In this document: one piece after another, positions 20,780 through 64,000 of the stretch
How positions within the stretch are numbered: position 1 is the stretch's first letter
How the letters are laid out: every line of letters begins with the position of its first letter
NCBI GenBank assembly: GCA_033816765.1
Contig: CM066292.1
Coordinates: 4,650,001 to 4,714,000, forward strand
DNA length: 64,000 nt
Direction of reading: 5' to 3'
Origin: Nothopassalora personata
Taxonomy: Eukaryota; Ascomycota; Dothideomycetes; Mycosphaerellales; Mycosphaerellaceae
Made by a program: the position numbers and the translations under genes
The notes under the pieces: generated by a model
What the model was told of the DNA's origin: nothing
Seen by the model: only the letters and a program-made list of their open reading frames with translations
Database searches by the model: none

Positions 20780-21284
20780 ATGGATAAAAAGGTTATCTAA
20801 CCAAGTCTTGCGCGCACAATTGACCTTACTTGAAGTGAATGGGTTATAGGTCCGTGCCGTGGACAAGCTAGATGTAAACAGCTGCCTTTCTTCCACCTTC
20901 ATAGACACAACAATCAAGACACATGCATCACCAATCAAGTACCTTTACATTGGTCGACTTTCCAGTGAGCCGGCGGACATCTGCGTGCATGGTCCGACAA
21001 AATCATAGCGAAAGTACCTTGGGAGGTGGGGATTGTTGGATGCATTGTCAATGTCACCGGCACAGCGATAGTGCTATGGCAGAAACGGAGACAGCAACGC
21101 AAGACTTCAGTGTAATACTCATTTGCATGACATGTCCCTCTAGTATATTCGAATGGCCGCGGTATCTGAAGCTTCATTTTTGATGTCCTGCCGCACAGCG
21201 CGGACCTCGTGCTCATATCAGTCTCGATTCGTCCTGCAACATCTTCAAGCCTGTATGCATCCATCATAACTCATCCTATTGCAT

Positions 21285-21991
21285 CTAAATGTATTCCCAG
21301 GCAGACAAATCGCCGTTGAAGGGAACGGCACGGATTTGAAAACTCTCACCGGACAAGTCAGTACGGCTGGCGGCGTAGATCTGGTACGCTTTTGCTTGGC
21401 CGTCTGTCATCATGAAGTTAGCGAAGATACCGACTGTACTTCGATGCTCTACTCACCCGGATCGTTGGAAGAATCGTTCGTGGGCACAGCAATGAAGCTA
21501 TTGTTCTCAAAGATAAGGTATCCCTGGGCAATACCAAAGCCGTGGACGATGGAGTCGTTGTTAACGGAGCCGTTAAATGCTTGAGTGAACTTGAGCGAAC
21601 CGTCAGCAGCGACGTAGACTTGCTGGACATCCGGCACCTCTGTGTAGAGATCGAGAGTGTCGTCTGGGAGGTAGTAGCTGAAGACCGTGTCGTTGGTTCT
21701 GCGGGTGGTGCTCGAGTCCTTGATATCGTCTGGAGTGTAGGTTGCGGTATCCTTGTTCAACCAGAATGACGAGCTATTAGCGGCAACTTGAGCATGCGCG
21801 ATGGTGCCGGCGGTCTCGAGGGCCACACCAGTGAATTCAATGGTTCGAGTCGCGGGGTGGTGGGCCTGTATACTTGTTAGTCGGTTCTCTTTGGGCATGC
21901 TGTGCAGACATCTGCAGTAACGGTAAATTACCTCTTGGGATGGCAGAGCAGCTGCGGATGCAGCGAGTGCAAGTGCGAAGAAGACCTGCAT
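21285..21991 (-). CDS. Small secreted protein, duplicate copy 1 (three exons)
   Basis: Exons 21991-21932, 21865-21457 and 21388-21285, about 190 residues. Intron 1 (66 bp) has GTAATT, a GACTAAC branch site and CAG. Intron 2 (68 bp) has GTGAGT and AAAAG. Intron 1 is a multiple of three without stops, so an unspliced reading frame also exists. Signal peptide MQVFFALALAASAAALPS. The mature part is acidic with several N-glycosylation sequons (NSS, NDT, NGS, NDS, NNS) and no obvious Cys. The third exon continues naturally as IYAASRTDLSGESFQIRAVP and ends WEYI. Family not recognised. Small, secreted and transposon-flanked would suit an effector or surface protein, but that is inference. Confidence 0.82.
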
Positions 21992-22614
21992 TTTTACTTG
22001 GCTTGGTGAGTGGCCTCGAGGTTCGGCATGAAATCAATGTGAACGATGCTTGGGTTGATGGAGTGTGGGATGCGAGCCTTTATAAACAGTCGATAATCAC
22101 TAAGGTCACATTGATGCCATTTCCTGACCTCATGTCGTTGGCCATGTCGTGAACTTTTATGGGTCCATACGAGGTCCCAACAACTAAGTAATGCACCGAT
22201 ATGCAAGGCTAGTGGTGTGATGTCTCGCAGCAAAGCTGTGCGAGGTACTCCCGAGTGAATTCATACAGCGTCTTTTAACAGCGCAGTAACAAAACCGTTC
22301 CCGCGTCGCCCGTTAATCCTAGCAAAAACCAGGATTACAGCAAATCGGCCAAGAGCGACAGTAAGGCAGCTGAACTTGATTTGTGAGTCGGTTTTCGATT
22401 AAGGAGGAACCATCGCCGTGTCGGTCCCCATACACCCGCTTCGCGGGTGTCGGCCACCCCAATGAAATCGCTCATCTCAGTGATAGTATCTATTGCAACA
22501 CGCGTTATCTTATCAACATAGTCGCTTAGGTATACCGCGAAGAAGAGTCTGTTATCTAGAAGGCCGCATAATGAAAGCGAGATGCGCAAAACTCACCTAG
22601 CATTCAGTAGATTA
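21992..22614. other. Promoter region and spacer before the RIPed island
   Basis: 5' flank of the secreted-protein gene; TTTATAAA near 22080 is a TATA-like box about 90 bp upstream of the ATG. Two hairpins occur: TAATCCT/AGGATTA around 22314-22336 and a strong 8-bp stem at 22432-22450. A minus-strand open stretch (22335-22589) starts with TTG and has no domain. Sequence is not RIPed. Confidence 0.5.
22432..22450. repeat. Perfect 8-bp stem hairpin
   Basis: ACACCCGC, loop TTC, GCGGGTGT. Present identically in unit 2 at 41265-41283. GC-rich hairpins of this kind occur at some transposon ends (for example Helitron 3' ends), but no CTRR end is next to it. Confidence 0.75.
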
Positions 22615-22862
22615 CCTATTAATGTCTACCAACCACCCTATGCAGGCCTGTCCGAGTTGTGGTGGTATAGAGCGGCGCTTATGTAAGTAGGGGTATTTGC
22701 CGGTCCCGGGACCGTGAAATCAGGTCACGTGACGAGTAGCGCAGTAGCTAGATAAAGAAGAGGATTGGCGGACCTAAACCCTTATACCCTCTACTCGAGA
22801 GGTATAAATTGAATTGTTTCCTTAATGCTACGCTTACAATGCTTAACTACGCAGTATATATC
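22615..22862 (+). repeat. 248-bp inverted repeat, left arm (un-RIPed version)
   Basis: Reverse complement of 38408-38655, same length. Starts CCTATTAATGTCTACC and ends GTATATATC. Could be a copy of an LTR (TG at TGTCTACC, CA just beyond at CTCAACA) or a terminal inverted repeat. The differences from the right arm are dominated by C-to-T at CpA and G-to-A at TpG in the right arm. Confidence 0.85.
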
Positions 22863-23794
22863 TCAACAGCTATACTAGGTTCTGCTAGCTTGCCTAAATG
22901 TCCAATTAAACTAAAATAAAATTAGGGCAAGTTAGACCTAAGGGACCCCCGCTAAACCTAAGGTTAACATAACCTATTAGTCGTTAATATATCCTCCCCT
23001 ATTACGAACCTGTCCTTAGGTTCTAAAGCAGTAAGCCCGGGCACTACAGGTAGCGTAGTTAGTTGCTATAAGCTAAGGTAGTCTTATAGTAGTACAATAG
23101 CTTACCCTACTATTTAGCTTAATATATAAGATGTTAGGTAATCCTAGGGCCTACTAGCGATAGTTTATAAAGATCGAAAGAATTCTTCTAATAGAGAGCG
23201 TAATAGTAACGTTAATAACCGCGACTCGCGCTATGTTAGTATTAATCGAATAGGCTAGATAGTCGAATAATACGAACGCCATTTATAAAACAAGTAAGTG
23301 TTAGTACTAGTAACCTAATAAATCTAAGGACGAGTCTATCGCGTAGCTAGAAAGTTAGTTAAGGGAAGATAAGTAACTATAAGAAACAAGTAAGATCTAA
23401 GGACTAGAAGCATCCGTACCCGAAGCATTAACTAGAACTAGAACTAGAATTAGAACTAGAAACCTATAGGCTATAGCTATAGCCGGAAAATTAACTAGAA
23501 ACTAGGAGCCTATAAACCTGCACTAACTACTTAGTTCCACTTATTCTTACATAACTCCTTTATCTAGACCTACTCGTTATCGTAGCTAACACTAGTCTTA
23601 TTAGACGCGTCCCTAAGTAGCTAGCTAGTAAAGTTCCTATAGTAGTTACGGAAGAAGCTCTTATCGCGCCCTTTGCTTATAAAGCACATCTACTCGAGAG
23701 TAGTAACTAAGCTAAGCTACTTGTCTATTAATTTTATAGCTCGGACGCGCTAATTATATATCTTCTTATAGAAGAGCTCCGAGTCTAGGCGGAC
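22863..23794. other. RIP-degraded sequence, origin unclear
   Basis: AT-rich, CpA-depleted, no open frame. It may be the beginning of the element whose LTR is the left arm, cut off by element A at 23795. A hexanucleotide array (ACTAGA)n lies at about 23431-23462; it is 12 bp longer in unit 2 (42264-42307). Confidence 0.6.
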
Positions 23795-23989
23795 TATTAA
23801 GGGATGTCGTAATGTATAGCACGCCTACGACCTCTAGTCGTAGATAAACTAATTCTTGCCTTTTATTTAAGACGCATTACGCGTCGTAAGGTATACGCAT
23901 ACGTGTCACGTACGGCTTAGTAGCCGGTCGCGACCGCATGTTACATGTAAGGCTATATATAAGGATTAGCCACTAGGCTACCCCTTATA
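23795..23989 (-). repeat. 3' LTR of Gypsy A
   Basis: 195 bp, matching 30199-30393. On the minus strand it starts TATAAGGGG (TGTAAGGGG in the un-RIPed relative at 39368) and ends CCCTTAATA (CTTAACA in the relative). Confidence 0.85.
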
Positions 23990-24296
23990 ATTGCCTCCCC
24001 TCCCGTGCGAGCTGTCCTTAGCTCGCTAGTTGCTACGTAGAGGCTCCTACGTACTTCTAGAACTATAGTTGCTATACGGCCTATATACGGGTTACGTACG
24101 TATCGTTATATAGGTGTAGGTAAGTAAGGCTTAGTTACTATACCGACGTAGCTAGTTAGGGGCATAAAACTCTAGCCTAACCTAGTTCTATTTCGTAGTA
24201 CGTTCCCTAGCGTACTACCTCCGTCGCACTACTACTACGCACCCGCACCGCACCCGTACCGTAAGCGCCTCGCTAGCATTATTATTATTATTATTA

Positions 24297-25333
24297 TGTC
24301 GGACGGGCCCTCCTCGCCGCCATTCTCTAGCCGCTCCGCCTCCTCTAGTAGCACTAGTAGCGATAGTACTACTAGCCCCTTAGAAGACGAGCGCCGCTAG
24401 GCGGCTCTAGTACGTAACGCACCTAGAACGCCTAGTAGTCGCAAGCGACTAGCATCTCCCTCGTAGCTACTAACGCCCTCGCCCGCTACTAAGCTCTCGT
24501 AGCGGATTAACATATATATACGGTGCCTCCTATACTTCGTTAGGGGTAAGTCTCTACGCGCGCCGCCTACGATTCGTATACTAACTACTTACTAGACGAA
24601 GCCGATAACTGTAATAGTGTTACTACCGGCGAGCTCCTAAGGAAGTGTAGCCGCTGTAGGCGTAATAGATACAGCTACGTGCTTAATACTAGCTACGCTA
24701 TCGCCTCGCTAGTAAGTCGCCTACGCGCCGCGCGCTCCTAGCGCGACTTCCTTACGGCCATGATAGGCTAGGCGCCTATAGACCTCTAGTAGTAGGAGCT
24801 AGTAGAGTAGATCTGCCTATATGCCTAGCTAGGTAACGACATTACGGAGGTAAGTCGCTACTTCGCTCCTACGAGTCGACTACTACTCGCGTACGGGGGC
24901 TCTAGTGCGTCTCCTATGCTTCGGCTAACCCTTTCTATAGGCTATTAGGCAATTTAATGCCTATAAGCATAAGCGTACCGGGGAAACCCGTATACGTGCT
25001 TCTACCGCCGCTACTACTACCGCCGCCCCCGCCGCCGAAGCCCTCGCGCTCTAGTAGGAGTAGAACCGCGCCCTTAATGGGCTGTTCGAACTCGGCCGCG
25101 CCGTAAGTCGTATGTTCCTCGTATACGTGTACCCTACTAACCGTAGTCCTAGTTCCTATAGGCGTAGAACATTAATACTACCGCCGCCGACTAGGCGTTC
25201 CTACCTAAGTTACTACGTAACGACAACTGAGGCGTTCGCCTTACACGCTACTCGCGGGCTCCTCGCCTACTACTACTCTACGTGGCCCCTAGTAGGTGCG
25301 CTACTCTTTAGCTTTTGTTTTATTTATAGTTAA
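24297..25333 (+). pseudogene. Accessory Cys-rich ORF of Gypsy A, antisense to pol, RIPed
   Basis: Lies between the end of pol and the 3' LTR of element A and is read on the opposite strand. It starts MSDGPSSPPFSSRSASSSSTS, a Ser-rich disordered N-terminus. A later block, after a frame change, contains LLRKCSRCRRNRYSYV preceded by a CLLY/VRGKSL segment. KCSRCRRNRYSY fits half of a Zn2Cys6-type cluster (CxxCx6C with the last Cys changed to Tyr by RIP). Many in-frame TAG codons look like former Gln/Trp. Element B retains the 3' half of the same ORF (32266-33060), so it is a conserved part of the family. The frame change could be a lost intron or an indel. Function unknown. Confidence 0.6.
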
Positions 25334-25372
25334 GAAAAGTTTTATTTATGCCCTAGTACTCCTATACTAGTC

Positions 25373-28300
25373 TTATTTACTTCTCCTTAACGCCTTATAG
25401 TCGGCTACTATACGATCCGCATTCGCGAGGCCCTCCGCCGGTTCCTAGCTGTTATACTCCTCTAGCTAGTCCTTCTACTAGACTAGATACTATAGCTTAC
25501 CCTTACGCTTACGCCTATCTAGTACTACCTCTACCTTATACTCTCCGTCCTTATTAGCTAGAGGGGGTACGGGTCCATCCTTATCGCTACCGATATACGG
25601 CTCGAGGAGAGAGACATAGAAGACGTTATAGAGCCTTAAGTCGGCTAGTAGCGCTAGGCGGTATACCTACGAACCGATAGCGTCCGTAATACGGTATAGG
25701 CCGATAAACCTCGGACCTATCTTCTTCTTTAGCACTGCTAACTTGAGGTTCTTCGTTAATAATAGGACTAAGTTACCTACGCGGTAGGTCTTAGCTTAGT
25801 AGGTCTTATTATAGTAGCGAGCCTAGCTTTCTACTATAGCCTTCTATCGCTCCTCGAGTGTAGCGCGTAGTTTTCGCATGCGACTCGTAGCTATTACCGC
25901 TACTGGTACTTCCCCCCCTAGGTCTCGTCTCGAGATCTAGTTAGTATAGGGGTAATCTTAGGTCGCTAACCGTACGCTATCTCGAACGGACTCATCCGTA
26001 GTATTAGGTAGATACTATTATTAGCTACGAATTTAGTAACTACAAGCCACTTAGCCTACTTAGTTTAATTGTTACTATAGTAATAACGAAGGTATTGTTC
26101 GAGGGTTTAGTTTACCCTCTTAGTTTAGCCGTTAGTCTAAGGGTAAAAGGCCGTAGATAGCTTACGCTTTACACGCGCCTCGAAGTAGAAGTTACTCTAA
26201 AACTAACTAGTAAAGACCGGACCTCGGTCGCTTACTATACCTAACGGGACACTATAGTGTCGCACGACTTTATCTCGTAGGAGCCTCGTAAGCTCTACGG
26301 CTATGTAAGTCTTCGTCGTCGGGATGTATAAGCTTATTTTTAAGTAGCGATCGACTATCACTAGGATCGCATTATATACGCAACCGGCTCGCGTACTTAG
26401 AGGTAGGTCCGTAATAAAATCTATAGTAATTTCCTACTACGGCCGCTCCGGTCTAGGAAGCGGTTATAGCCTACTATAGGGTCGATAGCGTTTAGCCTTC
26501 GAACCCTAGTAGGTTCTATAGGCTTAGACGTATTGCTTTACGTCCGTACTAAGTGAGTCCTACTAATAATTACGTCGCAATAGCTCTTTAGTCTTAGTCC
26601 TTCTAAAGTAACCCGCGAGGACGTCGTCGTAGTGTATGCGAATTAGATGCGACCTAATTGCGTGATCCCTAGGTACTACGATCGCGTCTCCGTAGTACAT
26701 AAGGTTATTCTTTACATGCTATCCCTTAGCGTCCCTCGCGCTTAGCGCCTACGCTAAGTATGCGATACACTAGTCGTCTTACTACTACGCGATCTTTATT
26801 AAGAGTAGGATTAACTCACCCGTCGAGCTATAAGCTTAACCCTATATTACTATAGCGTACACTGCTACTAGTAACGACGGCTTGTCTTAATAGGGAAGGT
26901 TACCTCTCCGTACTACTATTACCGCGCCTATGTCGCCCTACATTACCTCGTAGGTAGTAAGTACGCGCTTTACCGTCGGCTCGCTTATCCCTTCTAGAGA
27001 CTCCTTCTAGAAAGACAGCTTACTTTATAAGGTAGGTAGCAAGTTCGAAGTTTATTACGTTATAGCTACGTAGTTACTACGTCTCGAAGGCGCGTCGGCT
27101 AGGTTAGTCTTACCCGGCCGATGCTCTACTATAAAATTAAAAGACTATAGAAACGTAGCCTATCGAGCTTACCGCCCATTTAGCTACTTTACTATTATAA
27201 AGCCCTATAGGTTAGCGTAGTCGACTAGTACTCGTACCGTATACGTAGCGCCCTCTAAGTATAGCCTCTAATGCTTAAAAGCCTTAACTACTATAAGTAG
27301 CTCCTAATCGTGCGTCTCGTAGTTACACTCGGCTAGTATTATCTTACGTAAATAGAAGGCAATTAGATGCTACTTAGTCCTAAACAGCTAAGAGATAATG
27401 CCTATAATCGTAAAACCTAAGGTATCCGTCTTAACCCTCGTACGTAACGAAGGATCGAAGTGCCTTAGGATAGGTGCTCCGAGGAACCTAGCTTTTAGCC
27501 GTTAGAACGCTTACTCCTCGTAAGCGGACTACATAAGAGGCCCTTACTTCTTACTATTCTTACATCCCTTTAGTAGGTCTATTAATAGCTTCGCAATCCT
27601 CGAGTACCCTTCGATAAAGTGCCTATAGAAGTTATAGAATCCTAGGAAGGATTGAACCTTATAAAAACTCGTAGGCGTAGGCCATTCCTCGATTGCGGCT
27701 ACCCTACTCCTATCTATCGATACGTCTACGACGCTTACGATGAATCCTAGGAACTCGGCATTCTCCTAGAAGAAGCGACACTTCTTAGGGTTTACGAACA
27801 GAGCAAACTTCCGTAGCCTCGTAAGCACTTCGCGCACGGCTCGCACGTGTACCTTACGCGTCTCGCTGTAGATAAGGATATTATCTAGGTAGACTACGTA
27901 AATGTTATTAACTAAGCCGGTTAGCGCCTTATTAATATACCCTTAAAAGGTTGCTAGTACGTTAGTTAACCCGAACGGCATTACTAGGTACTCGTAGTGT
28001 CCGTATCGCGTGCGAAACGTAGTCTTCCACTTATCGCCTCGCTTAATAGAGATACGATAGTAGGCGTCCTTCAAATTAATTATAGTAAAGAACCTAGAAC
28101 CTAATAGCCTATCTAGCGTCTCGCTAATTAGGGGCAGGGGGTATCGGTTCTTCACTATAATCTTATTTAAGCCTCTATAGTCTATATAGAGCCTAAGGGT
28201 GCCGTCTTTCTTTAGTACGAATAAGATAGGCGCACCCGCCTCGCTTACGGACCGCCTAATCCACCCCTTCTCCATTGCTTACGTAAGGTACTCCTTTAAG

Positions 28301-30165
28301 GCCTCTAACTTAGTTAAGGACTAGTAGTATAGCGGCTTAAAAGGGGGTTTCTTTCCTTTAACGAGATTAATCGCATACTTAACCCCGTCGGGCATCTTAC
28401 GCTTCGCCTACTTATTAGGTACGTATACATCTCGGAAGTCTATAAATTCTTTAGGCTACGAGGGGCCCTCTCCTTCGGGTACTACTATAGTAATAGCCCA
28501 AACACTTATCGCATAAACCTACTTTAAGCTCTCGAGATCCCTAAGGAACTCGCGTACGTTACGCTACTAAATCGTAGGCGTCTCTATACCGTAGTACCAC
28601 TAGTCCTTATAATCGCTCTTTACGATCCGATTGCGGTACCTCTAGGGTCTACCTAAAATTACTAATAGCCTACCTATAGGTACCGCGTAGTAGATAGCGT
28701 TACTCACGCGCTCTACTCCCGCGTTATTAGCGAGTCGTAGCCGAACCGTAAAGGCGCCGTAGTAATACCCTAGGTTATATATATACGACTCTAACTTCGG
28801 TAGCCTTGCCCTATTAATAGGTTGCATTTAATGTCGGAGTATATACTTATACGGTACTAGGCTAAGATCCGTATAGTTATCTAGGAGAAACGTAGCCTCG
28901 CGAAAGCCCTTACGAGTCTCGACTACGCCTCGTAAGTAACGCGCTAGACACGTATCTACTCGCCTTAAAGGGTCGACTTTAGGAAAACTCGGACTTAGGA
29001 GCGACCCACTTATAGTCCTCTACCTTTTCCCTAGTCGCTGCCCTTCTTAGTTAGAGCCTTCGTAGCGTCTACCCTACGAACCGCTTACGCGTTACGGTCC
29101 TTCTATAGGTGCCTATTCGGGTAATCTGTCTTAATGTAACCCTTCTTATAGCATCTATAGTACTCCGCTTTAGTCCTATCGAAGGTTATAGACGATCCGC
29201 CGGCGTCCCGCTAGTAACTTGTACCCGGGTCGCGCGACGCCTAACTATACTTCTACTACTTCGAGCTACGATCGCTTCGCCCTTAGTCGCCCTTAGTCTC
29301 TCGCCTACGGCGACTATGCTACCCGCGGTCGTGCCCTCCGCTACTACGCTCCGTGCTTTTAATACGCGAAGCTAGGATTACTAGTTCCTCTCTAGTTATT
29401 AGGATGTTATGAAACTTAACGATTGCGGACCGTAGGCTAGGCGTAAGCTTAGCGAGCATGTGTCGTACGCGTTACGCCTCCGTATAGTCCCCTAACTAAT
29501 CCTCTATAACATCTAGCTTAGTCGTAAACTAACGTACTATCTAGTTGTCCTTCTATTTCACCGCCTTATACTCTAACATTACGTTAAGTACGCGGTTTAT
29601 AGGGTTACCGTATACGTCTCGATAGAACTCCTTAAAGTCCTAGTATATATACCCTTTAAGGTTAAGGACGCTATAGTTAGCGTGCTATCGCTCACTTGCC
29701 TCTCCGCTTAGGTACATAACCCTATATAGGACCTTTAACTCGTTCGTCCTATACGTGCCGCCTAAGAGGGTAAAGATAAGAGAGAGCTCCCTTAGGAATA
29801 CCCGTGCTTTCTTAATCGAGTCCCCTCTAAAAGGCGTAGGTTCTTTAAGACGTAAACGTGTCGTATACGATGCGACCGCGCCTCGAGCTACGATATTATC
29901 GTTAGTCACTATAGATGGAGGAGGGGGAGGGGGAGTAGGGGATAGTTCTCCGCCGGATTCGCCCTAAGGGTCCGCCGGTAGTACGCTTACGTCCCGTAAG
30001 ATCTCTAACTGTTTAATCTCCCTCTATATCTCCTTCTCCTTAACCTCTACCCGAAGGGCATCCCTCCTTACGACTAAGGCTACACGCCTCGCTTATTACT
30101 AGGCCCTAGGGCTTAGGGGAGCCGTAGGCGTAGCGCTACTATCGTCGCGTTCGGACTCTATAGCG
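25373..30165 (-). pseudogene. gag-pol of Gypsy A, RIP-inactivated
   Basis: Read 30165 to 25373 on the minus strand. Gag is charged and helical, with a CCHC knuckle near 29130-29180 read as YYRCYKKGYIKTDYP; Tyr replaces the expected first and last Cys, consistent with RIP. The clearest open piece is RT at 28275-27943 ([29 protein letters not shown]). It is followed by the RT catalytic motif as YLDNILIYS, where the second Asp has become Asn. RNase H (VVKAFKH), integrase and a chromodomain (EYKVEVVLDRRKRKGKL; 25560-25440) follow. Pol ends about 40 bp before the end of the convergent accessory ORF. Confidence 0.85.
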
Positions 30166-30198
30166 TGTATAGATTATAACGAAGAGAAGAATTAGAAC

Positions 30199-30393
30199 TG
30201 TTAAGGGATGTCGTAATATATAACACGCCCACGACCTCTAGTCGTAGATGAACTAATTCTTACCTTTTGTTTAAGACGCATTACGCGTCGCAAGGTGTAC
30301 GCATACGTGTCACGTGCGGCTTAGTAGCCGGTCGCGACCGTATGTTACATGTAAGGCTATATGTAAGGGTTAGCTACTAGGCTGCCCCTTATA
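30199..30393 (-). repeat. 5' LTR of Gypsy A
   Basis: 195 bp, ending (minus strand) CGACATCCCTTAACA, followed by the primer-binding region GTTCTAATTCTTCTC. Confidence 0.85.
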
Positions 30394-30395
30394 GA

Positions 30396-31307
30396 TTCCC
30401 TTAAGCGTTTATAACGGATAGAGATAAGCTATTTATATTAAACTACTAGAAGACGCTTATAGGAACGATCGGAATTAAATATAAGCTATTAATAGCATAT
30501 TATCCGGAAATAGACGGACAAACCGAAAGGATAAATTAAACGCTAGAACAATACCTACGACACTACATCAATTATGCATAAGATAACTAGGTTTCATTAC
30601 TGCTAATAGCGTAGATTGCACTAAACAACCATAAATCGGAGACAACTTTAACGATACTATTCTATGCGAACTTTAGTAAAGATCCTAACCTATTTAGAAC
30701 ACCTAGATCCTACCTGTAAGCCGAAAGAGCGATCGTAACGACGGACACTCTTAAGGAAGTGTATAAAGAAACACGTAAGGCGATTAAAGATATATAACAT
30801 AAACTGTCTTAATAACGGTAGGACATAAGAAAAATGGCACCTCTACTAAAAGAGGGGGATAAGGTCTATCTCCTTATAAAAAACTTAAGAATAAGGAGAT
30901 AGACTAAGAAACTGGATTACGTTAAGGTCGGACTATTTCTTATCGATAAAGTTATAGGACTAGTTAACTACCGCCTACGACTACCACTAGACGTAAAAAT
31001 CCACCTAGTCTTCTATATCTCTAAGTTAGAACCCGTAGATACCGAAACACCCTACTAGGAAAGCTTCCATTTCGAGCCGGAAGTAGAAAACGAATTTAAA
31101 GTCGAAAGAATCCTAGATAAGAAAGGTTAGCGATACCTTGTTAAATGGAAAGGATACGACGAATTAGAAAATACCTAGGAACTAGAAAAGAACCTATAAA
31201 ACTGTTAATAAAAGATCCGAGAATACTATAAGAAAAATAAAGACCTATAAGTTAACCCGCGGAGAGTAGTTCGGGTTCCTCCTAGAACTCGTTACCGAGA
31301 CCCTTAA
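30396..31307 (+). pseudogene. Integrase C-terminal part and chromodomain of Gypsy C pol
   Basis: RIPed plus-strand frame. The integrase core reads ITDRDKLFI, then AYYPEIDGQTERIN (catalytic Glu region) and IALNNHKSETTLTILFYANF. A later block is LKEGDKVYLLIKNL. The chromodomain is FKVERILDKKG, RYLVKWKGYDELENT. In-frame TAA/TAG replace expected Gln/Trp (for example the stop in YLVKWKGYDELENT*E). The frame ends at 31307, overlapping the 3' end of the convergent accessory ORF by 56 bp. Confidence 0.8.
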
Positions 31308-31809
31308 TAGCACCCTATGTGCCTAGTAACAAGTTAAGAGCTAGACCCTTATAAGGGATATCCGAAGGAAGTAAAGAAGCCTCTTCTATCTCCTACTCCT
31401 CGATCTCCCTTTCCTTAACGGAAATCGCCTCCTCGGCGCGACGATCTACTAGATCCATCTACTAGCGTAAGCGCTCCTTACGCGCGCGAGCAATCTTTAG
31501 GTCCTCGAGAGCCTTCTTATAAACCCGCATCGCCTCCTCCTAAGCGGACCGAGACTCCTAGATTTTCTAACGAAGACGAGCCTTCTCCTCTACTAACCTC
31601 TTAAACTCCGACTAAGTTACTCTTACATCGCACCTTTAGCCGCGACGAAGACACTTACTATACTTCCCGGAACGAATGTGCACCTTACACACGCGACTAT
31701 GCTTTTCACACGTTAAGCATTTCTTAACTATAACTTCTCTCGCGGATTTAACGAACTCGTAGAGACGGCGGCGACGGATAGTACTAGAAGGGCGTTAGTG
31801 GATAGGCAT
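31252..31809 (-). pseudogene. Accessory Zn2Cys6-like plus coiled-coil ORF of Gypsy C, antisense to pol
   Basis: 185-codon minus-strand frame from ATG 31809 to TAA 31252-31254. It is interrupted only by TAG/TAA codons that look like RIPed Gln/Trp. Residues ~32-62 carry the spacing C-x2-C-x6-C-x11-C-x6-C (CLTCEKHSRVC, then SKCLRRG, then RC). The Tyr three residues before the fourth Cys (KYSKC) is a single G-to-A change from Cys. Restoring that reading gives the exact Zn(II)2Cys6 binuclear cluster pattern. A long charged coiled coil follows (SEFKRLVEEKARLR, MRVYKKALEDLKIARARKER), the usual dimerisation arrangement of Gal4-type factors. It lies tail to tail with pol, before the 3' LTR. Its role in the element is unknown. 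Confidence 0.7.
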
Positions 31810-31900
31810 CGTAAAAGGAAGAAGCTATACGCGAATACATAGAGGATACCGTTCGTTATAAGTAAGCTTAAGGGACTAAGCTAGGCTAGAAGGGGGATAG

Positions 31901-32265
31901 TGTTACGGTTCGGTCTAAACGGTAGCCCCGACTAGACACACGTAACACTAATTACTTAGAGACACGTAATACTAATTATCTAGACACACGTGACACTAAT
32001 CACTTCACGGACTAATTAGTGTAATTAGTATACTTAGTAGGACTGATTAAGGTAATTATACTAAGCTATAGGCTCTACGCCGCGAATCTCTTTTATATTT
32101 AGGAACGCTAAGAACCCTTATAGTTTCGATGCGTTTAACTTATGTTACTATCTTACTAATTGGAATACAACTCTTATTCCTATTATTTATCTTCGCTTAG
32201 CTTACTTTAGCCTCTCTAAAGAATACCGCCACGTCACTTAACTTATCTCTCCTTTAAGACTAGCC
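31901..32265 (+). repeat. 3' LTR of Gypsy C (right end approximate)
   Basis: Starts TGTTACGG right after the purine tract. Contains a tandem-like ACACGTAACACTAATTA family of repeats at about 31937-32000. The end is set by the start of element B homology; the terminal dinucleotide was not identified with certainty. Confidence 0.65.
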
Positions 32266-32368
32266 CTAGAACGAGATAATAATAAGGGGACACCCGCGTA
32301 CGCTTTACCGGCGCCTCTACTACTACTGCCCCCTCCTCCGCCGCCGCTACTACGTCCGTAGTTCTATA

Positions 32369-32795
32369 TTGATTGATTGATTATTCCATTAACGTGCTAT
32401 TTGAGTCAAAGACTATGCAACACGGGTCTCGAGAACGAGACCAAAATTTGAGAGAAGGAGAAAAGCCCCGTCGTACCCCGGACGTAAAAACTCCTTAAAA
32501 GATGCGAGCAACGCTCGCTATTCGAACCGTAAATCGAATATATTGCGGCGTAGTACGCGCGTACCCGGTAGTCGTGTCTTGTCGAGAATTGCGGTTTGTC
32601 GCCTTGCCCCGGGCGAGACAAGTTTTGCGCCCGTGTCTCGTTCTTGTTTTAAAAAGCCAAGCCGGCCGTACCCGTACGCACCGAGCAAAATCCCAAGAAA
32701 CACCCGTTGCCTCTGTTTCAATCCAGTCGCGTTCTCCGGTCTCGAGTGTAGCTCCTCGGTCGCAGTGGCCTCGCTGTCGTCCCCCCCTCGGCCTC
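32369..32795 (-). mobile_element. 0.43 kb non-LTR (LINE/SINE-like) insertion, unit 1 only
   Basis: Absent from unit 2, where 58518 joins 58519, so its borders are visible. Flanked by TCTATA on both sides (32363-32368 and 32796-32801), with a 3-nt loss at the right. On the minus strand it ends in (AATC)n, a microsatellite-type tail as in LINE/SINE 3' ends. It is not RIPed (many CA and TG), unlike its surroundings. It contains a perfect GGTCTCG-AGAA-CGAGACC hairpin (32427-32444) and a B-box-like GGTTCGAAT (minus strand, about 32520-32530). No protein domain seen. A 5'-truncated LINE or a SINE both fit. Confidence 0.7.
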
Positions 32796-33153
32796 TCTAT
32801 AAGAGTAGAATAGGGCCCTTAATAGGCTCTTCGAGCTCGGCCGTACTATAATTAACATACGTGTCGTATACGTGTCCTATACTAACCGTAGTTATAGTTC
32901 CTATAGGCTAGAAACATCGATACTACTACGGCCGATAGGGCCTTCTTACTACTAGCCCTACGGGGCGAGTATAATAAGGAGGATAATAAGGAGGATAATA
33001 ACGAGTAATCGCGCGCTCCGCGTATATTAGCCGCCTACTACGCGCCTATCTCCTATCTACGTAGCGCCGTAGCGCGCCCTATAAAAGTTTATTTTTAAAA
33101 TAAATACTCTTCTCTCTACTCTTCTCTCTTCTTACCTCCCTCTCTAATTTTAT

Positions 33154-33263
33154 TACTATCGGGGGTGTTCGCTCGACTAAGTAAGCGAGCCTTTTAGTCC
33201 GATAGAAGACACTATAGGTTAGTGTCTTCTATACTAGTTATAGCTAAGTATACTATCGGGGGT
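33154..33263. repeat. Structured 110-bp box with two hairpins between 13-bp direct repeats
   Basis: TACTATCGGGGGT occurs at 33154-33166 and 33251-33263. Between them: GCTCG/CGAGC (33171-33175, 33186-33190) and a perfect 13-bp stem ATAGAAGACACTA with TAGTGTCTTCTAT (33202-33214, 33220-33232; 5-nt loop). It lies between the accessory ORF remnant and pol of element B and has no counterpart in element A. Same in unit 2 at 58874-58983. Confidence 0.85.
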
Positions 33264-48200: not shown

Positions 48201-48384
48201 TGTCACGGGCAGCCCGCGACCCTTCACTGACGATGCGTCGTCCCGGCGGAACCTCGGACCTTCCGCATCGGGTTAGCGCGGCTTGGCGTTGCTTTATCTA
48301 TCCGCCGCGCCTCGCGCTCCTCTTTCGTAGCTTCGTAGAACAACAACTATCTCATTCGGACCCTATGGTACGCGCGCCCTTACA
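48201..48384 (+). repeat. 5' LTR of element D
   Basis: TGTCACGGGCAGCC...GCGCCCTTACA, 184 bp. Contains GTAGAACAA (48335-48343), complementary to the site just inside the LTR. Confidence 0.96.
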
Positions 48385-48386
48385 GT

Positions 48387-48395
48387 TTGTTCTAC
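48387..48395 (+). promoter_or_regulatory. Candidate self-priming primer-binding site of element D
   Basis: TTGTTCTAC starts 2 nt after the 5' LTR and is the exact reverse complement of GTAGAACAA at 48335-48343 in the same LTR. No tRNA-type PBS beginning TGG is present at this position. In Tf1-type elements the mRNA 5' end folds back on such a site to prime reverse transcription. Confidence 0.6.
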
Positions 48396-48553
48396 CTCCC
48401 TACCCAGATCGCGGATCCAGGTAAGGGACGCGTAACAACAGGAACAGACTCACAGAACCGCGCACGGCGTAGATACAGAACTCGCGACTCGCAACATCGC
48501 AACAGAGGCAAACGGATTCAGAACACGGAACACGGTAAGGCACTAAGCAACAG

Positions 48554-50587: not shown

Positions 50588-50604
50588 GCGTGGCAGACAG
50601 TGGT
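50563..50604 (+). promoter_or_regulatory. Candidate -1 programmed ribosomal frameshift signal (gag to pol)
   Basis: Slippery heptamer GGGAAAT (50563-50569) is in the X-XXY-YYZ register of the gag frame (CAG GGA AAT). A 6-nt spacer GGCGAG follows. Then a stem: GCCAC (50576-50580) with GTGGT (50600-50604) and TGCC (50581-50584) with GGCA (50592-50595), bulge GACA, loop TAAGCGT. The alternative stem GCCACTG/CAGTGGT is also possible. The gag stop codon is in the loop. Pol is in the -1 frame, open from here, and has no early ATG. Confidence 0.7.
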
Positions 50605-53600
50605 CAACCGAACAACCAAGGACAGAAAGAGCATGAGATTGAGAGACACAGAGTGCAAGAGCAAGACACGGATACAGACTATGGTGAGGAGCTGAAGATA
50701 TCGGCCTGCGCATTGGAGCCGCAGCAACCAGATGTACACCCTCACATAGTACTCCCAGTAATGATACAGCATGGGAAGGCACGAGGCCTTGTAGACTCTG
50801 CTTCCACCTCTCTCTTTCTCGACTGGAAGTTCACACGCAAACACAGAATACCCTTGATACCCCTTGTGCGCAACAAGAACCTGACCCTTGGGGATGGTAA
50901 GGCTGCTGCACGTCGCATCACGCACGTAGCCCTCGTCGATGTTGATATCGACGGTCATCACGAGCAAATGCTATGCTACATAACCGACCTCGAATACGAC
51001 ATCGTCCTGGGCCTGCCGTGGCTGAGCACGCACAACCCAAACATCTTCTGGGAGACCGGTGAAGTGGCACTCAGATCAGACTACTGCTTTGGTCACTGTC
51101 TTAAGAACAAGACATCGACAACAGTCCAGTCCCTGAACCATCGACACCGACAACGTAAGGAAGCAATGAAATATGGACCAGAGCCCTTCACCGATGATCG
51201 CAGCTTCACGGCAGGAGGGGCAGAAGCAGAACTGAACCTATCCTCGATGGGCCTGTACGACGATGATGAGGAAGTCGAGTGTATAGGCGTCACGCAGCGC
51301 GCCTTCGAGATGTACGCGCACCGACCTGGCGCTGAATGTTTCTACATACTATCTACCGGCAAAGAGGACGAAGAAGGCGATGGTGAGATCAAGCTGAGCG
51401 CAATGGCAGCTGATGACTTGGATCAGTTCCTGAACAAGGAGTTCAACCATAACCCGAAGGAGAAGCTCCCACCAGAATACCATGATCTCGTAGATGCATT
51501 CTCAGCGAAAGACCATGAAGGACTTCCTCCTCACAGACCTGGAATCGACCACGAAATTCACATCAAGCCTGATGGGCCCCAAGAACCGCCATACCGTAAG
51601 CCCTACGGACTGGCGCCTCAGGAGAATGAAGCAGTCAAGAAGTGGGTCACCGAACAGGAGCAACAAGGCAAAGTCCGGCCAGCAGGACAGAAGACGAGCC
51701 AATCGCCGGCACCAGTACTGGTAGTCAGAAAGCCAGGCGGTGGACTGCGCGTGTGCATCGACTACCGAGGACTCAATGCGATCACTATCAAGAACAGGTA
51801 CCCTATACCGCTAATCCAAGAGACACTGAACCGCATGCACGGCAAGAGGTACTTCACGAAGCTGGACATCGTCGCAGCCTTCAACAAGCTTCGCATTGCA
51901 GAAGGGCACGAATGGCTTACAGCATTCGCTACACGATATGGGGTGTACGAATGTCTTGTGTTACCATTCGGCCTATGCAATGGCCCTGCGTCGTTTCAGT
52001 CATACATTAACAGCGTGTTACAAGAACACCTGGATGACTTCGTCTCCGCGTACCTGGACGACGTTTTAATTTTTAGCGACACACTGGAGGAGCACATCGA
52101 ACATGTGCGCAAGGTACTAGCAAAATTGAGGGATGCCGGACTGACGGTCGACATCGACAAGTGCGAGTTCCACCAGCAGCGAGTTAAGTACCTGGGACTT
52201 ATTATCACCCCAGATGGCATCGAAATGGACCCAGAGAAGCTTGAATGTATCCAGTCATGGGAAGCACCTTCCAACCTCAAGGATGTGCAGGCGTTCCTCG
52301 GATTCGCCAACTTTTACAGACGGTTCATCGAGGCCTTCTCACGCCTCGCAGCGCCGCTGACCGAATTGACCAAGTCAAATGGACCTAGTAATCACAAGAA
52401 TCGCAGGGTTGACTGGACACCAGCATGCCAAGCAGCATTTGACGCTCTGAAGGCAGCATTCAGCAAAGCCGGTATGCTCGCACACTATGTGCCCGGTAGG
52501 CAAACAGTAGTCGAAACGGACTCATCAGATTTCGTGAACGCCGGAGTGCTTTCTCAGTACGACGAGGAAGGCGTGCTTCACCCTGTAGCATTCTATTCAA
52601 AGAAGCTGAGCCCGCAGGAATGCAACTATGAGATTTATGACAAGGAGCTTCTAGCGATTATTAAGGCCTTCGAGGAATGGCGCCCGGAGTTGGCCTGCGA
52701 GGCGGATGATGACACCATCGAACCCGTGAAGGTGTTCACGGATCACAAGAACTTGGAGTACTTTATGACCACTAAGCAGCTGAATCGGCGCCAGGCACGT
52801 TGGGCCGAATTCCTGTCCCAGTTCAACTTCCGTATTGTCTATCGACCAGGTGTCCAAGGCACAAAGCCTGACAGCCTCACGAGACGCAGCCAGGACCTTC
52901 CGCAGGGGGTGGACGATCCGCGAAATCAGCATCAGCATCAGACGTTGCTGCCGCCTGAGCGATTTCTTAAGATCGACTCGATGCGCGCAACTGTCGAAGA
53001 TGCGGCTGAGGATGTTGCACCTGTTGAGAACACACCTACCGCACCAATTGAGGAAGCCCTGAACCCGGAGGCCACCGAATTCATACCGTCCACGCAGACG
53101 CAGACAGCATCCGAGACGGAACAGGAAGCCGAACTCGAGTACAGAATGACAATGGCTTATGCCGCGGATGCAGACCTGAAGTCAGCTATCAGAGCCCTGC
53201 AGAAGGGCGAGACCCCAGCACTCCTTCAGAAAGCGAAGGTGCATCCAGTACACTGCAAGGTCGAAGGGGACCTGCTGTACGTCCGTAACCAGTATAATGA
53301 CTGGAGTCTATGGGTGCCAGAGGACCAGAAGCTCCGCACTCGGATAGTCAAGATGAACCATGACACCCTAGCGGCCGGTCACCCAGGCAGAGCCCGCACC
53401 TACGAGCTCGTTGCACGTGAATTCTACTGGCCTGGTTTGGCTAGATCTGTGCGCAGATACAACGCGAATTGCCGCAGGTGCCGCACGACGAAATCTGTGC
53501 ATACCCAGCCACCTGGATTACTGCACCCACTTTCGGTGCCAGAACGACCTTGGCAACACATCGCAGTTGACTTTGTGGTTGACCTGCCACCAAGCGAACT

Positions 53601-55392
53601 CGACGGCATGACTTACACCAATGTTATGACAGTCACCGACAGACTCACTAAGGAAGTGGAACTGATACCCATCGGCGCGATGACAGCGCAGAACGCGGCG
53701 CGACTTTTCTTAAAGCACGTGTTCACCCGGCATGGCCTCCCAGAAACCATCACGTCTGATCGCGGAAAGCAGTTCATCGCCACTTTCTGGAAGCGCCTAT
53801 GCAAGATGCTGCGCATCAGCAGGAAGCTGAGTTCCTCCTACCACCCTGAAACGGATGGGCAATCAGAACGCACTAACCAAGAGATGGAACAGTACTTACG
53901 CACCTTCACGAATGAGGCACAGAGCGACTGGGCCGACTGGCTGTGCTTAGCGCAGTTCGCTATTAACAACCGAGTGTCGGAGACCACTGGAGTGTCACCG
54001 TTCTACGCCAATGTTGGATATAACCCAGAGTTCACCGAGCGTATCGATTTGCAAGCAGGCAAGGACCGACACATGACAACCCTTCAGCGACTCGACAGCA
54101 AGTCAGCCGAAGCCTTCGCCAAACGCATCTGTGAGCTACATCGCAATCTTCAAGAGAACATGAGGATGTCACAGGCGCTGCAAGCCGAAGCAGCAAACAG
54201 GCACCGAAGCATCCCACCAGACTACAAGGTTGGCGACTGGGTGTATCTAAGCACGAAGAACATTCGCACCACTCGACCATCCAAGAAGCTGGACCGCAGA
54301 TATGCAGGACCGTACCAGATCACGGAGGTGATGCCCGCTAGGCTGTCATACAAGCTGAACCTGTCGGATGCATTGAGCGGACTCGATAATTGCTTCCACA
54401 CCTCCCTGTTACAGCGAGCCGACAACCCCGATCTCCCACCGCTCGAGGGACAGCACCTGGCACCGCCGCCGCCAGTGGCCATCGAACCCGACACAACTGC
54501 AGCTGACGCAGTCGCCGATGTCACAGTCACAGCCCCGGCACCAGAATATGAGGTGGACAAGATCTTGGACATGTACACGCGGAAGCGCGCAGGCAAAGTG
54601 AAGAAGGGAAAGAAGCGCAAGGTGGACACTTGGTACAAGGTGCGATGGACTGGCTATCAGGATATGGAGGCCGGAGAGACTTGGCAACCTGCAGAGGACC
54701 TGTTTGTGAGGGCAGCCGCCGCTCTTGCGGACTTTCACCACAGCCGGCCGGATTTGCCCACGCCTCAGGGCTTCGCAACGCCATCTGACTGGTCTCCAGT
54801 CAATGAGGTGCTCGGACTTAACACGATCAGGGTCGACAGAGACACCGCCACAAATAAGCCTAGCCGAGCCTTGCCTCTGATAGAATCTGGTCAGCGCATG
54901 TTCACTACGCACCGCTACGATGATCAGGTTACAGGAAAGTCCGTCGTCCCAACTGAGGATCACGGTGCAAGCCGCCGCCCTCAGCTCTACGACAGAACAG
55001 ACAGTTGTACCGATGTTCTAGCGAACCCTGCAGAGCCTGCATTGATACCCAACCTTGGTCAAAAGGATCAGACGCGAGCGTTCGCCGAAGAGGGGCTTAG
55101 GCCCTGGGCGTGCCAGCAGTATGAGCAAACAGAGTCTGATGCGCAAGCCGCAGCAGTAGTGACAGAGATGGAGGACGACCTTGAAGACGATTGGACGTTT
55201 GCACGATTATGGAGTTCGACAGGCAAGGGTGATAAGTGGCCGCACAAGACGATGGATAGGCGAGTTAATGGACTGAACGCTCAGAGGACTGAGACGAGTT
55301 TTGAGAGGGGGGGTACTGTCACGGGCAGCCCGCGACCCTTCACTGACGATGCGTCGTCCCGGCGGAACCTCGGACCTTCCGCATCGGGTTAG
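50569..55392 (+). CDS. pol: Pol polyprotein of element D (protease, RT, RNase H, integrase, chromodomain)
   Basis: About 1,600 residues in the -1 frame relative to gag. Numbering from 50590: protease with LVDSAST (Asp ~69); RT ~350-560 with RVCIDYRGLNAITIKNRYP, LVLPFGLCNGPASF and the catalytic YLDDVLIFS (~488); RNase H ~640-750 (ETDSSDF, YDKELLAIIKAFEEWR). Integrase has an HHCC zinc domain (HDTLAAGHPGR ... CRRC, ~923-960) and DDE residues at VDFVVDLPPS (~993), TSDRGKQF (~1057) and ETDGQSERTNQ (~1092), plus the GPY motif YAGPYQI (~1238). A chromodomain at ~1320-1375 (YEVDKILDMY, YKVRWTGYQD, ETWQPAEDL) marks it as a chromovirus and would guide integration to modified histones. A 210-residue tail follows and the stop lies inside the 3' LTR. 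Confidence 0.95.
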   Translation, partial: WRGHCLSVADSGQPNNQGQKEHEIERHRVQEQDTDTDYGEELKISACALEPQQPDVHPHIVLPVMIQHGKARGLVDSASTSLFLDWKFTRKHRIPLIPLVRNKNLTLGDGKAAARRITHVALVDVDIDGHHEQMLCYITDLEYDIVLGLPWLSTHNPNIFWETGEVALRSDYCFGHCLKNKTSTTVQSLNHRHRQRKEAMKYGPEPFTDDRSFTAGGAEAELNLSSMGLYDDDEEVECIGVTQRAFEMYAHRPGAECFYILSTGKEDEEGDGEIKLSAMAADDLDQFLNKEFNHNPKEKLPPEYHDLVDAFSAKDHEGLPPHRPGIDHEIHIKPDGPQEPPYRKPYGLAPQENEAVKKWVTEQEQQGKVRPAGQKTSQSPAPVLVVRKPGGGLRVCIDYRGLNAITIKNRYPIPLIQETLNRMHGKRYFTKLDIVAAFNKLRIAEGHEWLTAFATRYGVYECLVLPFGLCNGPASFQSYINSVLQEHLDDFVSAYLDDVLIFSDTLEEHIEHVRKVLAKLRDAGLTVDIDKCEFHQQRVKYLGLIITPDGIEMDPEKLECIQSWEAPSNLKDVQAFLGFANFYRRFIEAFSRLAAPLTELTKSNGPSNHKNRRVDWTPACQAAFDALKAAFSKAGMLAHYVPGRQTVVETDSSDFVNAGVLSQYDEEGVLHPVAFYSKKLSPQECNYEIYDKELLAIIKAFEEWRPELACEADDDTIEPVKVFTDHKNLEYFMTTKQLNRRQARWAEFLSQFNFRIVYRPGVQGTKPDSLTRRSQDLPQGVDDPRNQHQHQTLLPPERFLKIDSMRATVEDAAEDVAPVENTPTAPIEEALNPEATEFIPSTQTQTASETEQEAELEYRMTMAYAADADLKSAIRALQKGETPALLQKAKVHPVHCKVEGDLLYVRNQYNDWSLWVPEDQKLRTRIVKMNHDTLAAGHPGRARTYELVAREFYWPGLARSVRRYNANCRRCRTTKSVHTQPPGLLHPLSVPERPWQHIAVDFVVDLPPSELDGMTYTNVMTVTDRLTKEVELIPIGAMTAQNAARLFLKHVFTRHGLPETITSDRGKQFIATFWKRLCKMLRISRKLSSSYHPETDGQSERTNQEMEQYLRTFTNEAQSDWADWLCLAQFAINNRVSETTGVSPFYANVGYNPEFTERIDLQAGKDRHMTTLQRLDSKSAEAFAKRICELHRNLQENMRMSQALQAEAANRHRSIPPDYKVGDWVYLSTKNIRTTRPSKKLDRRYAGPYQITEVMPARLSYKLNLSDALSGLDNCFHTSLLQRADNPDLPPLEGQHLAPPPPVAIEPDTTAADAVADVTVTAPAPEYEVDKILDMYTRKRAGKVKKGKKRKVDTWYKVRWTGYQDMEAGETWQPAEDLFVRAAAALADFHHSRPDLPTPQGFATPSDWSPVNEVLGLNTIRVDRDTATNKPSRALPLIESGQRMFTTHRYDDQVTGKSVVPTEDHGASRRPQLYDRTDSCTDVLANPAEPALIPNLGQKDQTRAFAEEGLRPWACQQYEQTESDAQAAAVVTEMEDDLEDDWTFARLWSSTGKGDKWPHKTMDRRVNGLNAQRTETSFERGGTVTGSPRPFTDDASSRRNLGPSASG
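55303..55313 (+). promoter_or_regulatory. Polypurine tract of element D
   Basis: GAGAGGGGGGG, 3 nt before the 3' LTR, primes plus-strand DNA synthesis. It lies inside the pol reading frame. Confidence 0.85.
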
Positions 55393-55500
55393 CGCGGCTT
55401 GGCGTTGCTTTATCTATCCGCCGCGCCTCGCGCTCCTCTTTCGTAGCTTCGTAGAACAACAACTATCTCATTCGGACCCTATGGTACGCGCGCCCTTACA
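55317..55500 (+). repeat. 3' LTR of element D
   Basis: 184 bp, identical by eye to 48201-48384. The pol frame ends within it at 55392. Confidence 0.96.
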
Positions 55501-56543: not shown

Positions 56544-56545
56544 GA

Positions 56546-61400: not shown

Positions 61401-64000
61401 CGTAGGCGTAGGCTATTCCTCGATTGCGGCTACCCTACTCCTATCTATCGATACGCCTACGACACTTACGATAAACCCTAGGAACTCGGTATTCTCCTAG
61501 AAGAAGCTACACTTCTTTAGGTTCGTAAATAGGGCGAACTTTCGTAGCCTCTCTAGTACCGCGCGTACGGCTCGTACGTACTCTTTACGCGTTACGCTAT
61601 AGATAAGGATGTTATCTAGGTAGACTACGTAGATATCGTCTACTAACCTAGTAAGGGCCTTATTAATGTACCCCTAAAAGGTAGCTAGTACGTTAGTTAA
61701 CCTAAAAGGTATAACTAAGTACTCGTAGTAACCGTATCGCATGCGAAACGTAGTCTTCTACTCGTCTCCTCGCTTAATAGGAATACGGTAGTAGGCATCC
61801 TATAGGTCGATTATAGTAAAGAGCCTAGCGCCCTATAGCCTATCTAAGGTCTTACTAATTAGGGGTAGTAGGTACCGGTTCTTTACTATAATCTTATTTA
61901 GGCCTCTATAATCTACATAGAGCCTAAGAGTACTATTCTTCTTTAGCACGAATAGGATAGGCGTACCCGCCTCGCTTATGGATCGCCTAATCCACCCCTT
62001 CTCTATTACTTACGTAAGGTACTCCTTTAAGGCCTCTAGCTTAGTTAAGGACTAGTAGTATAGCGGCTTAAAAGGGGGTTTCTTTCCTTTAACGAGATTA
62101 ATCGTATACTTAACCCCGTCGGGCATCTTACGCTTCGCCTACTTATTAGGTACGTATACATCTCGGAAGTCTATAAATTCTTTAGGCTACGAGGGGCCCT
62201 CTCCTTCGGATACTACTATAGTAATAACCCGAACACTTATCGTATAAACCTACTTTAAGCTCTCGAGATCCTTAAGGAACTCGCGTACGTTACGCTACTA
62301 AATCGTAGGCGTCTCTATACCGTAGTACTACTAGTTATCCTTATCGGCCTTTACTATCCGATTACAATACCGCTAGGGTCTACCTAAAATGACTAACGGC
62401 CTACCTATAGGCGCTATATAGTAGATAGCGTCGCTTACGCGCTCTACTCCTACATCGTTAGCTAGTCGCACGCGAACCGTATAGGCGCCGTAGTAATGCC
62501 CCTAGTCCTACGCGTACGACTCTAGATTTAGAAGCCTTATACTACTAATAGGCTATATCTAGTATTAGAGTATATACTCGTACGATACTAAGCTTAAATC
62601 TACACCGTTATCTAGAAGAAACGTAGCCTCGCGAAAGCCCTTACGCGTCTCGACGGCGCCTCGTAAGTAACGCGCTAGACTCGTATTAACTTACCTTAAG
62701 GGGTCTATATAGAAACTCGGACTTAGGAGCGACCCTTACCTAGTCCTCTACCTTTTCCCTATTCGCCCTTCTTAGTTAAAGCCTCGATAGTTTCTAACCT
62801 ACGAACCGCTTACGCGTCGCGGTCTTTCTATAGGTGTCTATTCCGGTACTCCGTCTTATAGTAACCCTTCCTACCGTAGCCGTAGTACTCTACTTTCGAC
62901 TTCTAGCTAGTTAAAGACGAGCTACCGGCGTCTCGCTACTAACTCGCACCCGAGGCGCCTAGTACTTAACTCTACTTCTATTACTTTAGGCGATCGACCC
63001 GCTTATGTACGCCCTTAGCTTTACGCTTATAACGTATATACTACCCGCGGTCGTGCCCTCCGCTACTACCTCGGTACTCGGTACTTTCGATACGCGAGGC
63101 TAGGACTACTAGGTCTTCTCTAGTCGTAGGGATATTATAGTAGCTAACGATAGCGGACCGTAAGCGAGGCGTAAGCTTCGCTAGTAGGTGCCGTATACGT
63201 TACGCTTCCGAGTAGTCGCCTAACTAGTCCTCTATAACATCTAGCTTAGTCGCGAACTGTCGCGCTATCTAGTTATCCTTCTATCTCGTAACCTCGTACT
63301 TTAATATAACGTTAAGTACGCGATTTATAGGATCGCCGTATACGTCTCGATAGAACTCCTTAAAGTCCTAGTATATATACTCTATAAGGTTAACGGCGCT
63401 ATAGTTAGTATACTATCGCTCGCTTACCTCTCCGCTAAGATATATAACCCTATATAGGACCTTTAATTCGTCTATCGCGTATATAGTACCTAAGAGGGCA
63501 AAGATAAGTAAGAGCTCCCAAAGGAATACCCTTACCTTCCTTATCGAATCCCCTCTAAAAGGCGTCGGCTCTTTTAGACGCGGTCGCGTCGTATACGCTA
63601 CGGCCGCGCCTCGTACTGTAATATTATTATTAGTAGTTATAGAGATAGAGGTAGGGGTTGTAGTAGGGAGGTAACATTCTCTCCTCCCTCCTATACGCTC
63701 TAGAGGCGGTACGCTTATAGCGCGTAAGATCTCTAGCCGCTCGATCTCCCGCTATATCTCTTACTCTTTAATCTTAGCCCGTAAGGCCTCTCTTCTCGTA
63801 ACTAAGGCTATACGACGCGCCTACTACTATACTCTAGGGCTTAGGGGCGGCGTAGGCGACTCGCCGTCGTATACGTTACGATCGGGCTCTATAGTGTATA
63901 TAGATTATAACGAAGGGAAGCTTTAGAACTATAAGGGCCGTAAGGCTATAAGGGGATGTCGTAATATATAGCATACCTACGATCTTCTAATCGTAGATAA
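58416..64000 (-). mobile_element. Gypsy element B (unit 2), runs off the window
   Basis: Copy of 32266-38280 without the 0.43 kb insert: the uninterrupted site reads GTTCTATAGTAAGAG at 58511-58525. Contains the RIPed gag-pol of the A family and the start of its 5' LTR (63947-64000). Confidence 0.85.
58874..58983. repeat. Structured 110-bp box (unit 2)
   Basis: Copy of 33154-33263 with both hairpins and the TACTATCGGGGGT direct repeats. Confidence 0.85.

Follow-up and report, generated by a model that had tools for sequence, protein, structure and literature searches.

In Cladosporium fulvum (Fulvia fulva), a close relative of the fungus studied here, the accessory chromosome Chr15 carries a 12.9 kb tandem duplication with candidate-effector genes; the portions of the report available to us describe duplicated genes pseudogenised by C/T changes and RIP footprints on nearly all elements (PMC10823647). 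In Pseudocercospora ulei, also a relative, the LTR family RLG_Mira is young and unscarred amid scarred regions, and the authors state in the excerpted text that no RID orthologue was detected (PMC13041039). In clonal lineages of Pyricularia oryzae, RIP is expected to be disabled for lack of meiosis, according to passages of PMC12543289. Colletotrichum higginsianum is described in extracts of its genome report as having RID and DIM-2 orthologues, RIP-like marks in some families and segmental duplications tied to elements, and its sexual reproduction as never reported (PMC5576322).

We analysed a window of 64,000 bp from Nothopassalora personata (C6:4650001-4714000 of the 54.5 Mb, 40-contig genome), together with 40 kb to its right and 10 kb to its left, giving 114 kb in total. 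As in C. fulvum, there is a tandem duplication in a RIP-scarred genome, but here the three gene copies did not differ and appeared intact, and no scars were seen in the young elements examined (compare PMC10823647). The old scarred regions and the recent expansion of an unscarred LTR family resemble those excerpted for P. ulei, whereas homologues of RID, DIM-2 and DNMT5 were found here (compare PMC13041039). The likeness to P. oryzae is that RIP would be expected to be idle under clonal growth, although that inference is made at the population level in the text available and ours concerns one array and one element family (compare PMC12543289). With C. higginsianum, as excerpted, the locus shares the presence of RID and DIM-2, RIP marks and duplications tied to elements; those duplications were linked to subtelomeric elements, whereas the present one is an internal tandem triplication (compare PMC5576322). 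The present case sits between the compared systems, with the machinery present and RIP idle, and is clearly a new example of an event of known kind. Among the titles and abstract openings surveyed, no pristine tandem triplication of RIP-scarred DNA was recognised.

Self-BLAST of the 114 kb and a three-way alignment revealed three head-to-tail units, A, B and C (Table 1). The initial annotation had described a tandem duplication of 18.8 kb units with dense RIP mutations. The array is real, but it has three units rather than two, the count of two having arisen because the window ends inside B. The insertion-free unit is about 18.4 kb, as the 18,833 bp of A include a SINE-like insert, and the first 1.84 kb of the unit is unscarred. 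The LTR at the A/B junction belongs to the inverted old element E3, and the B/C junction (65332/65333) was the same base for base over the 51 bases compared. Each outer flank (left of 20780 and right of 83748) was single in the 114 kb compared, with no second copy at the array junctions; the right flank is itself E3, which belongs to a large family. The first 1.83-1.84 kb of the unit, approximately, had three full-length matches in the assembly (A, B and C), the 38 other listed matches being short. Identical junctions, head-to-tail units and single outer flanks are the features of a tandem triplication, and we regard the array as confirmed to be a recent one, as far as the assembly represents the chromosome. 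It is very improbable that a haplotype or unitig was joined twice to produce the array artefactually. The array does lie in repeat-rich DNA and was seen in an assembly, but a haplotype error would be likely to duplicate the flanks as well and unlikely to use the same breakpoint twice, and each unit has private insertions or substitutions. For these same reasons, the false tandem derived from haplotypes, which the initial annotation had named as the case that would overturn its reading, is unlikely.

Table 1. Features of the array and its surroundings (window numbering, continued past the window where needed).
Feature	Position	Strand	Description	Basis
Unit A	20780-39612	+	18,833 bp including SINE-like insertion	Self-BLAST and three-way alignment
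Unit B	39613-65332 (end past window)	+	25,720 bp including LTR retrotransposon	Self-BLAST and three-way alignment
Unit C	65333-83748 (wholly beyond window; L005, L006)			Self-BLAST and three-way alignment
A/B junction	39612/39613		LTR of inverted old element fused to unique DNA, 1-bp overlap	
Unscarred segment of A	20780-22615	+	275 CpA+TpG	Same sequence in all three units
Small secreted-protein-like gene	21285-21991	-	Three exons	Homology to 193-aa Fulvia fulva CLAFUR5_07257
RIP-scarred old element DNA of A	22616-39612	+	16,571 bp without insertion	Alignment and RIP indices
E1, old scarred LTR element	23793-30401	+	205-bp LTRs, 91.7% alike	Self-BLAST
E2, second old scarred element	33419-38348	+	About 80% identical to E1	Self-BLAST
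E3, inverted old LTR element	83505-90091 (L006, L007)		Relative of E1; its LTR spans the right breakpoint of the array	
277-bp tract	29684-29960 in A; 74249-74525 in C	+	C differs from A/B at 8 sites	
SINE-like insertion private to A	32368-32793	+	426 bp	Three-way alignment
LTR retrotransposon private to B	48201-55500	+	7,300 bp, unscarred	Reverse transcriptase, RNase H, integrase, chromodomain

The old part shared by the units was heavily scarred. In A, its RIP product index was 2.29, its substrate index 0.23 and its composite index +2.05; the composite index was -0.55 in the left flank (20.8 kb) and -0.47 in the gene segment. Nine family-copy loci (L011-L019), each taken with 1.5 kb flanks, had composite values of +1.95 to +2.37. 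The repeats showed the RIP signature of CpA/TpG depletion and TpA excess, which was absent from the neighbouring unique DNA. When 22 family copies were compared over about 1 kb (B and C were omitted as near-duplicates of A, and some copies cover part of the stretch), 7,429 of the 9,142 pairwise differences fell at RIP sites, the copies differing chiefly by C-to-T at CpA. Because the family copies differ mostly at such sites, RIP must formerly have been active here.

The three-way alignment comprised 18,416 columns after both insertions had been excised; two further one-base gaps in it reflect the cutting at the insertion site and the chosen unit ends. Pairwise, 8,576 bp of A aligned with 8,588 bp of B with no mismatches and one 12-bp gap, followed by 3,018 bp at 100%, and the rest of the unit had two substitutions (33149 T/G and 37020 A/C), both transversions. 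These two transversions and the 12-bp microsatellite difference set A apart from both B and C, while B and C differed from each other by one base inside the microsatellite. Private to C were one A-to-G difference outside the tract (31235 in A) and eight differences from A/B within 277 bp.

The unit start gave the most informative view of RIP since the array arose. The first 2,658 bp were identical in A, B and C, and there were no changes at the 275 CpA/TpG of the gene segment in any of the three copies. The scarred part (16.6 kb) retains 483 CpA/TpG per unit; shared scars are a weak test because little remains in scarred DNA for RIP to hit, and the unscarred gene segment is a better one. Across the 758 targets of each of the three copies, changes in the RIP direction were absent outside the 277-bp tract, which by the rule of three (3/2274) limits the share of targets hit to about 0.13%. 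In the period since the array arose, no action of RIP on these new long duplicates was detected. The order of RIP first, duplication later and no visible RIP since is strongly supported.

Much of what the initial annotation had claimed about RIP agreed with these data. Its two A/B transversions, microsatellite change and two TE insertions were all recovered in the full alignment, its proposal that RIP predates the duplication is upheld, and its view that RIP had spared the new copies is sustained by the unchanged gene segment. Its argument from shared scars reached a conclusion that holds, but is weaker than it looks with so few targets remaining. The count of RIP-type against other differences was as it had noticed for A and B, which had none of RIP type; once C was included, RIP-context differences did occur, all within the one 277-bp tract.

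Five of the eight tract differences are of RIP type, with CpA/TpG in A/B and TpA in C, and one is a C-to-T change at CpG. At the remaining two, the C allele at 29749 is a transversion and C has CpA at 29750 where A/B have TpA. Twenty other family copies were aligned, consisting of L011-L019 (the next-best loci) and L033-L043, which were chosen as the best matches to C and hence are biased towards it. All eight C alleles occurred together in L035, which has four other tract differences, and seven of the eight were present in nine other copies (L013, L018, L033, L037-L039 and L041-L043). Among the 20 copies, L033 was closest to C in the tract, with two sites differing, and no donor identical to C there was found among 37 non-array matches (from the best 40 of 515 first-look candidates). 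The A/B alleles are those of E3 at seven of the eight sites; A/B and E3 differ at only two positions in the 277 bp, versus 51 columns, ten of them beyond the match end, over the whole 1,046 bp. We rejected de novo RIP in C, which is scarcely credible in spite of the five RIP-type sites, as RIP could not produce the alleles at 29749 and 29750 and should hardly have passed over the other 18 kb, and as all eight alleles are found jointly in L035 and seven of them in nine other aligned copies. The best explanation of the clustered differences is gene conversion among copies of the element. It is possible that the ancestor of A and B was converted from its neighbour E3, rather than C having been overwritten.

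The LTR retrotransposon in B has identical 184-bp LTRs, a 5-bp CCGTG target duplication, long open frames at 48554-50587 and 50590-55392, 1,090 CpA/TpG and a composite index of -0.51. All 19 full-length matches that were scored (the best 19 of 446 first-look candidates) were about 100% identical to it, and a 401-bp piece was identical in 40 of 40 matches (the best 40 of 204 candidates), indicating at least 40 copies. In an alignment of seven full copies, namely that in B and six of the 18 other full-length matches, 15 columns varied over 7,300 bp. Of these, 12 were substitutions seen in a single copy, one was a gap, and the other two belonged to one LTR variant that copies shared. All seven were unscarred, with composite indices of about -0.51. 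Single changes in the RIP direction numbered two (5169 in B and 6541 in L045), against three at sites of this kind that ran the opposite way (1494, 7114 and 100). LTR pairs were identical in five of the seven copies, and a separate 5-bp target duplication flanked each of the seven. Below the best-scoring matches there may be scarred relatives of the young elements.

We read the 426-bp insert in A as SINE-like, based on its shortness, terminal ATTG repeats and a flanking TCTATA repeat; two to three target bases were apparently lost at the insertion. Its matches were 100% identical in 40 of 40 cases (the best 40 of 396 first-look candidates). Repeats under 400 bases often escape RIP, according to the text seen of PMC10823647, and because this element is near that length it counts little as a test of RIP. 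A 193-bp piece of it, 100% identical and inverted, lies past the array (L008, 99053-99245).

A search of the genome contigs with the PF00145 profile identified four stretches in three genes. The RID-type gene (C1:47894-48834) was full length against a 706-aa Dothistroma septosporum protein, with two exons that were 62% identical over residues 1-556 and 80% identical over residues 558-706, separated by a GT-AG intron. Its translation carries PCQ (motif IV) and EQT (motif VI), the latter being the hallmark of most Masc1/RID proteins, with EET in some, in the passages available (PMC6709928). With full-length homology and both motifs, it resembles the RID/Masc1 proteins, and the homologue looks intact. 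Its distance from the beginning of contig C1 is about 48 kb, and its position may be subtelomeric. The methyltransferase at C7:3016165 was closest to 9bap, a 1,456-aa DNA (cytosine-5-)-methyltransferase, and we interpret it as DIM-2-like. For that at C7:1642698 the best match was 7r76, which bears the name 'DNA repair protein Rad8' and which we take to be DNMT5, so that this gene would be DNMT5-like. MAT alpha-box matches were found at C12:636845-637207 (profile 88-181; L050) and C9:304785-304910 (profile 42-83; L051), and a SPO11-type match at C6:2068291. The two MAT matches, being on different contigs, represent either two genes or a displaced mating-type fragment. As judged by homology, the fungus possesses genes for RIP as well as some involved in sex; their use is a separate matter. 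The suggestion in the initial annotation that the lineage may have lost RIP is not supported in the form of a missing RID or DIM-2, and since homologues of RID, DIM-2 and DNMT5 are present, with RID full length, loss of these genes does not appear to be the cause of the missing marks.

We propose the following history, which we consider probable. E1, E2 and E3 would have been scarred before any duplication. The starting segment of 18.4 kb would have combined one unscarred, gene-bearing piece with about 16.6 kb of retroelements killed by RIP, its left break lying in unique DNA and its right break in the LTR of the inverted old element, and a non-homologous event, of which the 1-bp overlap would be the trace, would have joined two segments head to tail. 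The third unit was presumably added by homologous exchange between two long units. Private insertions and substitutions would probably have come last: the SINE-like element entered A, the LTR retrotransposon entered B, and gene conversion from another family copy replaced a short stretch either of C or of the A/B ancestor. RIP, having scarred the old elements earlier, would not have marked the array at any time since its origin, nor the young retrotransposon copies examined.

The cause that we favor is that the lineage skipped the pre-meiotic stage at which RIP acts, presumably through clonal growth. This clonal interval seems the most likely cause because the RID, DIM-2 and DNMT5 homologues persist and RID is full length. 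In Neurospora crassa, RIP occurred in unlinked duplicates in about half of the spores of one cross, as the excerpt of PMC11969663 has it, and mutations of the sexual cycle are mostly RIP-derived in the text seen of PMC7296669. Because of this frequency per cross and this share of sexual-cycle mutations, a clonal interval is our first choice, although taken alone we would put its probability at about one half. In three units of 18.4 kb, the three private substitutions of the array amount to about 5e-5 per site, and the 12 single-copy substitutions in seven LTR copies of 7.3 kb to about 2e-4 per site, part of which may be copying errors. From these values, we infer that the burst and the array belong to the same quiet period, the burst perhaps having started earlier.

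RIP could also be broken for good in the species in a component other than those checked, through expression, a cofactor or a subtle missense change. We find this rather doubtful. It would account for 40 or more LTR copies that show no difference over 401 bp and for 40 or more identical SINE-like copies, and the scarred regions and unscarred young LTR family of the related P. ulei offer a precedent, but the RID homologue here is full length with the family motifs, P. ulei differs in that its authors, in the text available, detected no RID orthologue, and the evidence here fits a clonal interval equally well. Alternatively, RIP might be fully active and the array very young, without a cross so far, the array and the burst both being younger than the last sexual cycle of the strain and thus specific to the strain or culture. 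The scarcity of private substitutions in the three units (three outside the tract and the microsatellite) would agree with this; however, the LTR copies have had time to reach many insertion sites (at least 40 places) and to gain 12 single-copy substitutions among seven copies, and the SINE-like family was active too, so we consider such recent origin unlikely, less probable than broken RIP. The broadest account is less probable still. In it, a complete RIP toolkit, recent clonality and a datable start of the quiet period would go together, DNA duplicated earlier than that start being scarred and DNA duplicated later being pristine, and the triplication, with its three intact copies of a secreted-protein gene bordering dead DNA, would be a dosage change made possible, and perhaps advantageous, by the silence of RIP.

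Whichever cause applies, the array is a natural test piece, with RIP-exhausted and RIP-naive DNA in one unit and three copies of it. A single locus tells that RIP worked before the birth of the array and left no mark after it, and with RID and DIM-2 homologues present, the array separates the loss of RIP genes from RIP not being used. It could also serve as a marker for cryptic sex, as a RIP-competent cross should leave CpA-to-TpA changes in the three gene copies, and it shows how a gene can be multiplied in a genome that has destroyed its duplicates in the past.

The gene so multiplied appears intact in all three copies; the copy in B (40118-40824) and that in C were identical to that in A. 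The predicted protein starts MQVFFALALAASAAALPS, which looks like a signal peptide by eye, and has relatives in D. septosporum and Pseudocercospora eumusae (six proteins found in all); the main open frame had no Pfam match. A pair of short repeats (about 110-125 bp each, 79-94% alike) occupies 20828-20940 and 22264-22389, which are 49-161 and 1485-1610 in unit positions; the genome-wide listing gave 38 further matches. RNA genes were rejected as an identity for these repeats, as a search of 19000-24000 gave no Rfam match up to E = 1 and the window contained no tRNA. The closest match of one flank protein was from F. fulva, at 82%. In the left flank, a tandem repeat at 5207-5608 (258-bp match, 94.6%, offset 144 bp) lies inside an M18 aminopeptidase-like open frame at 4660-7356.
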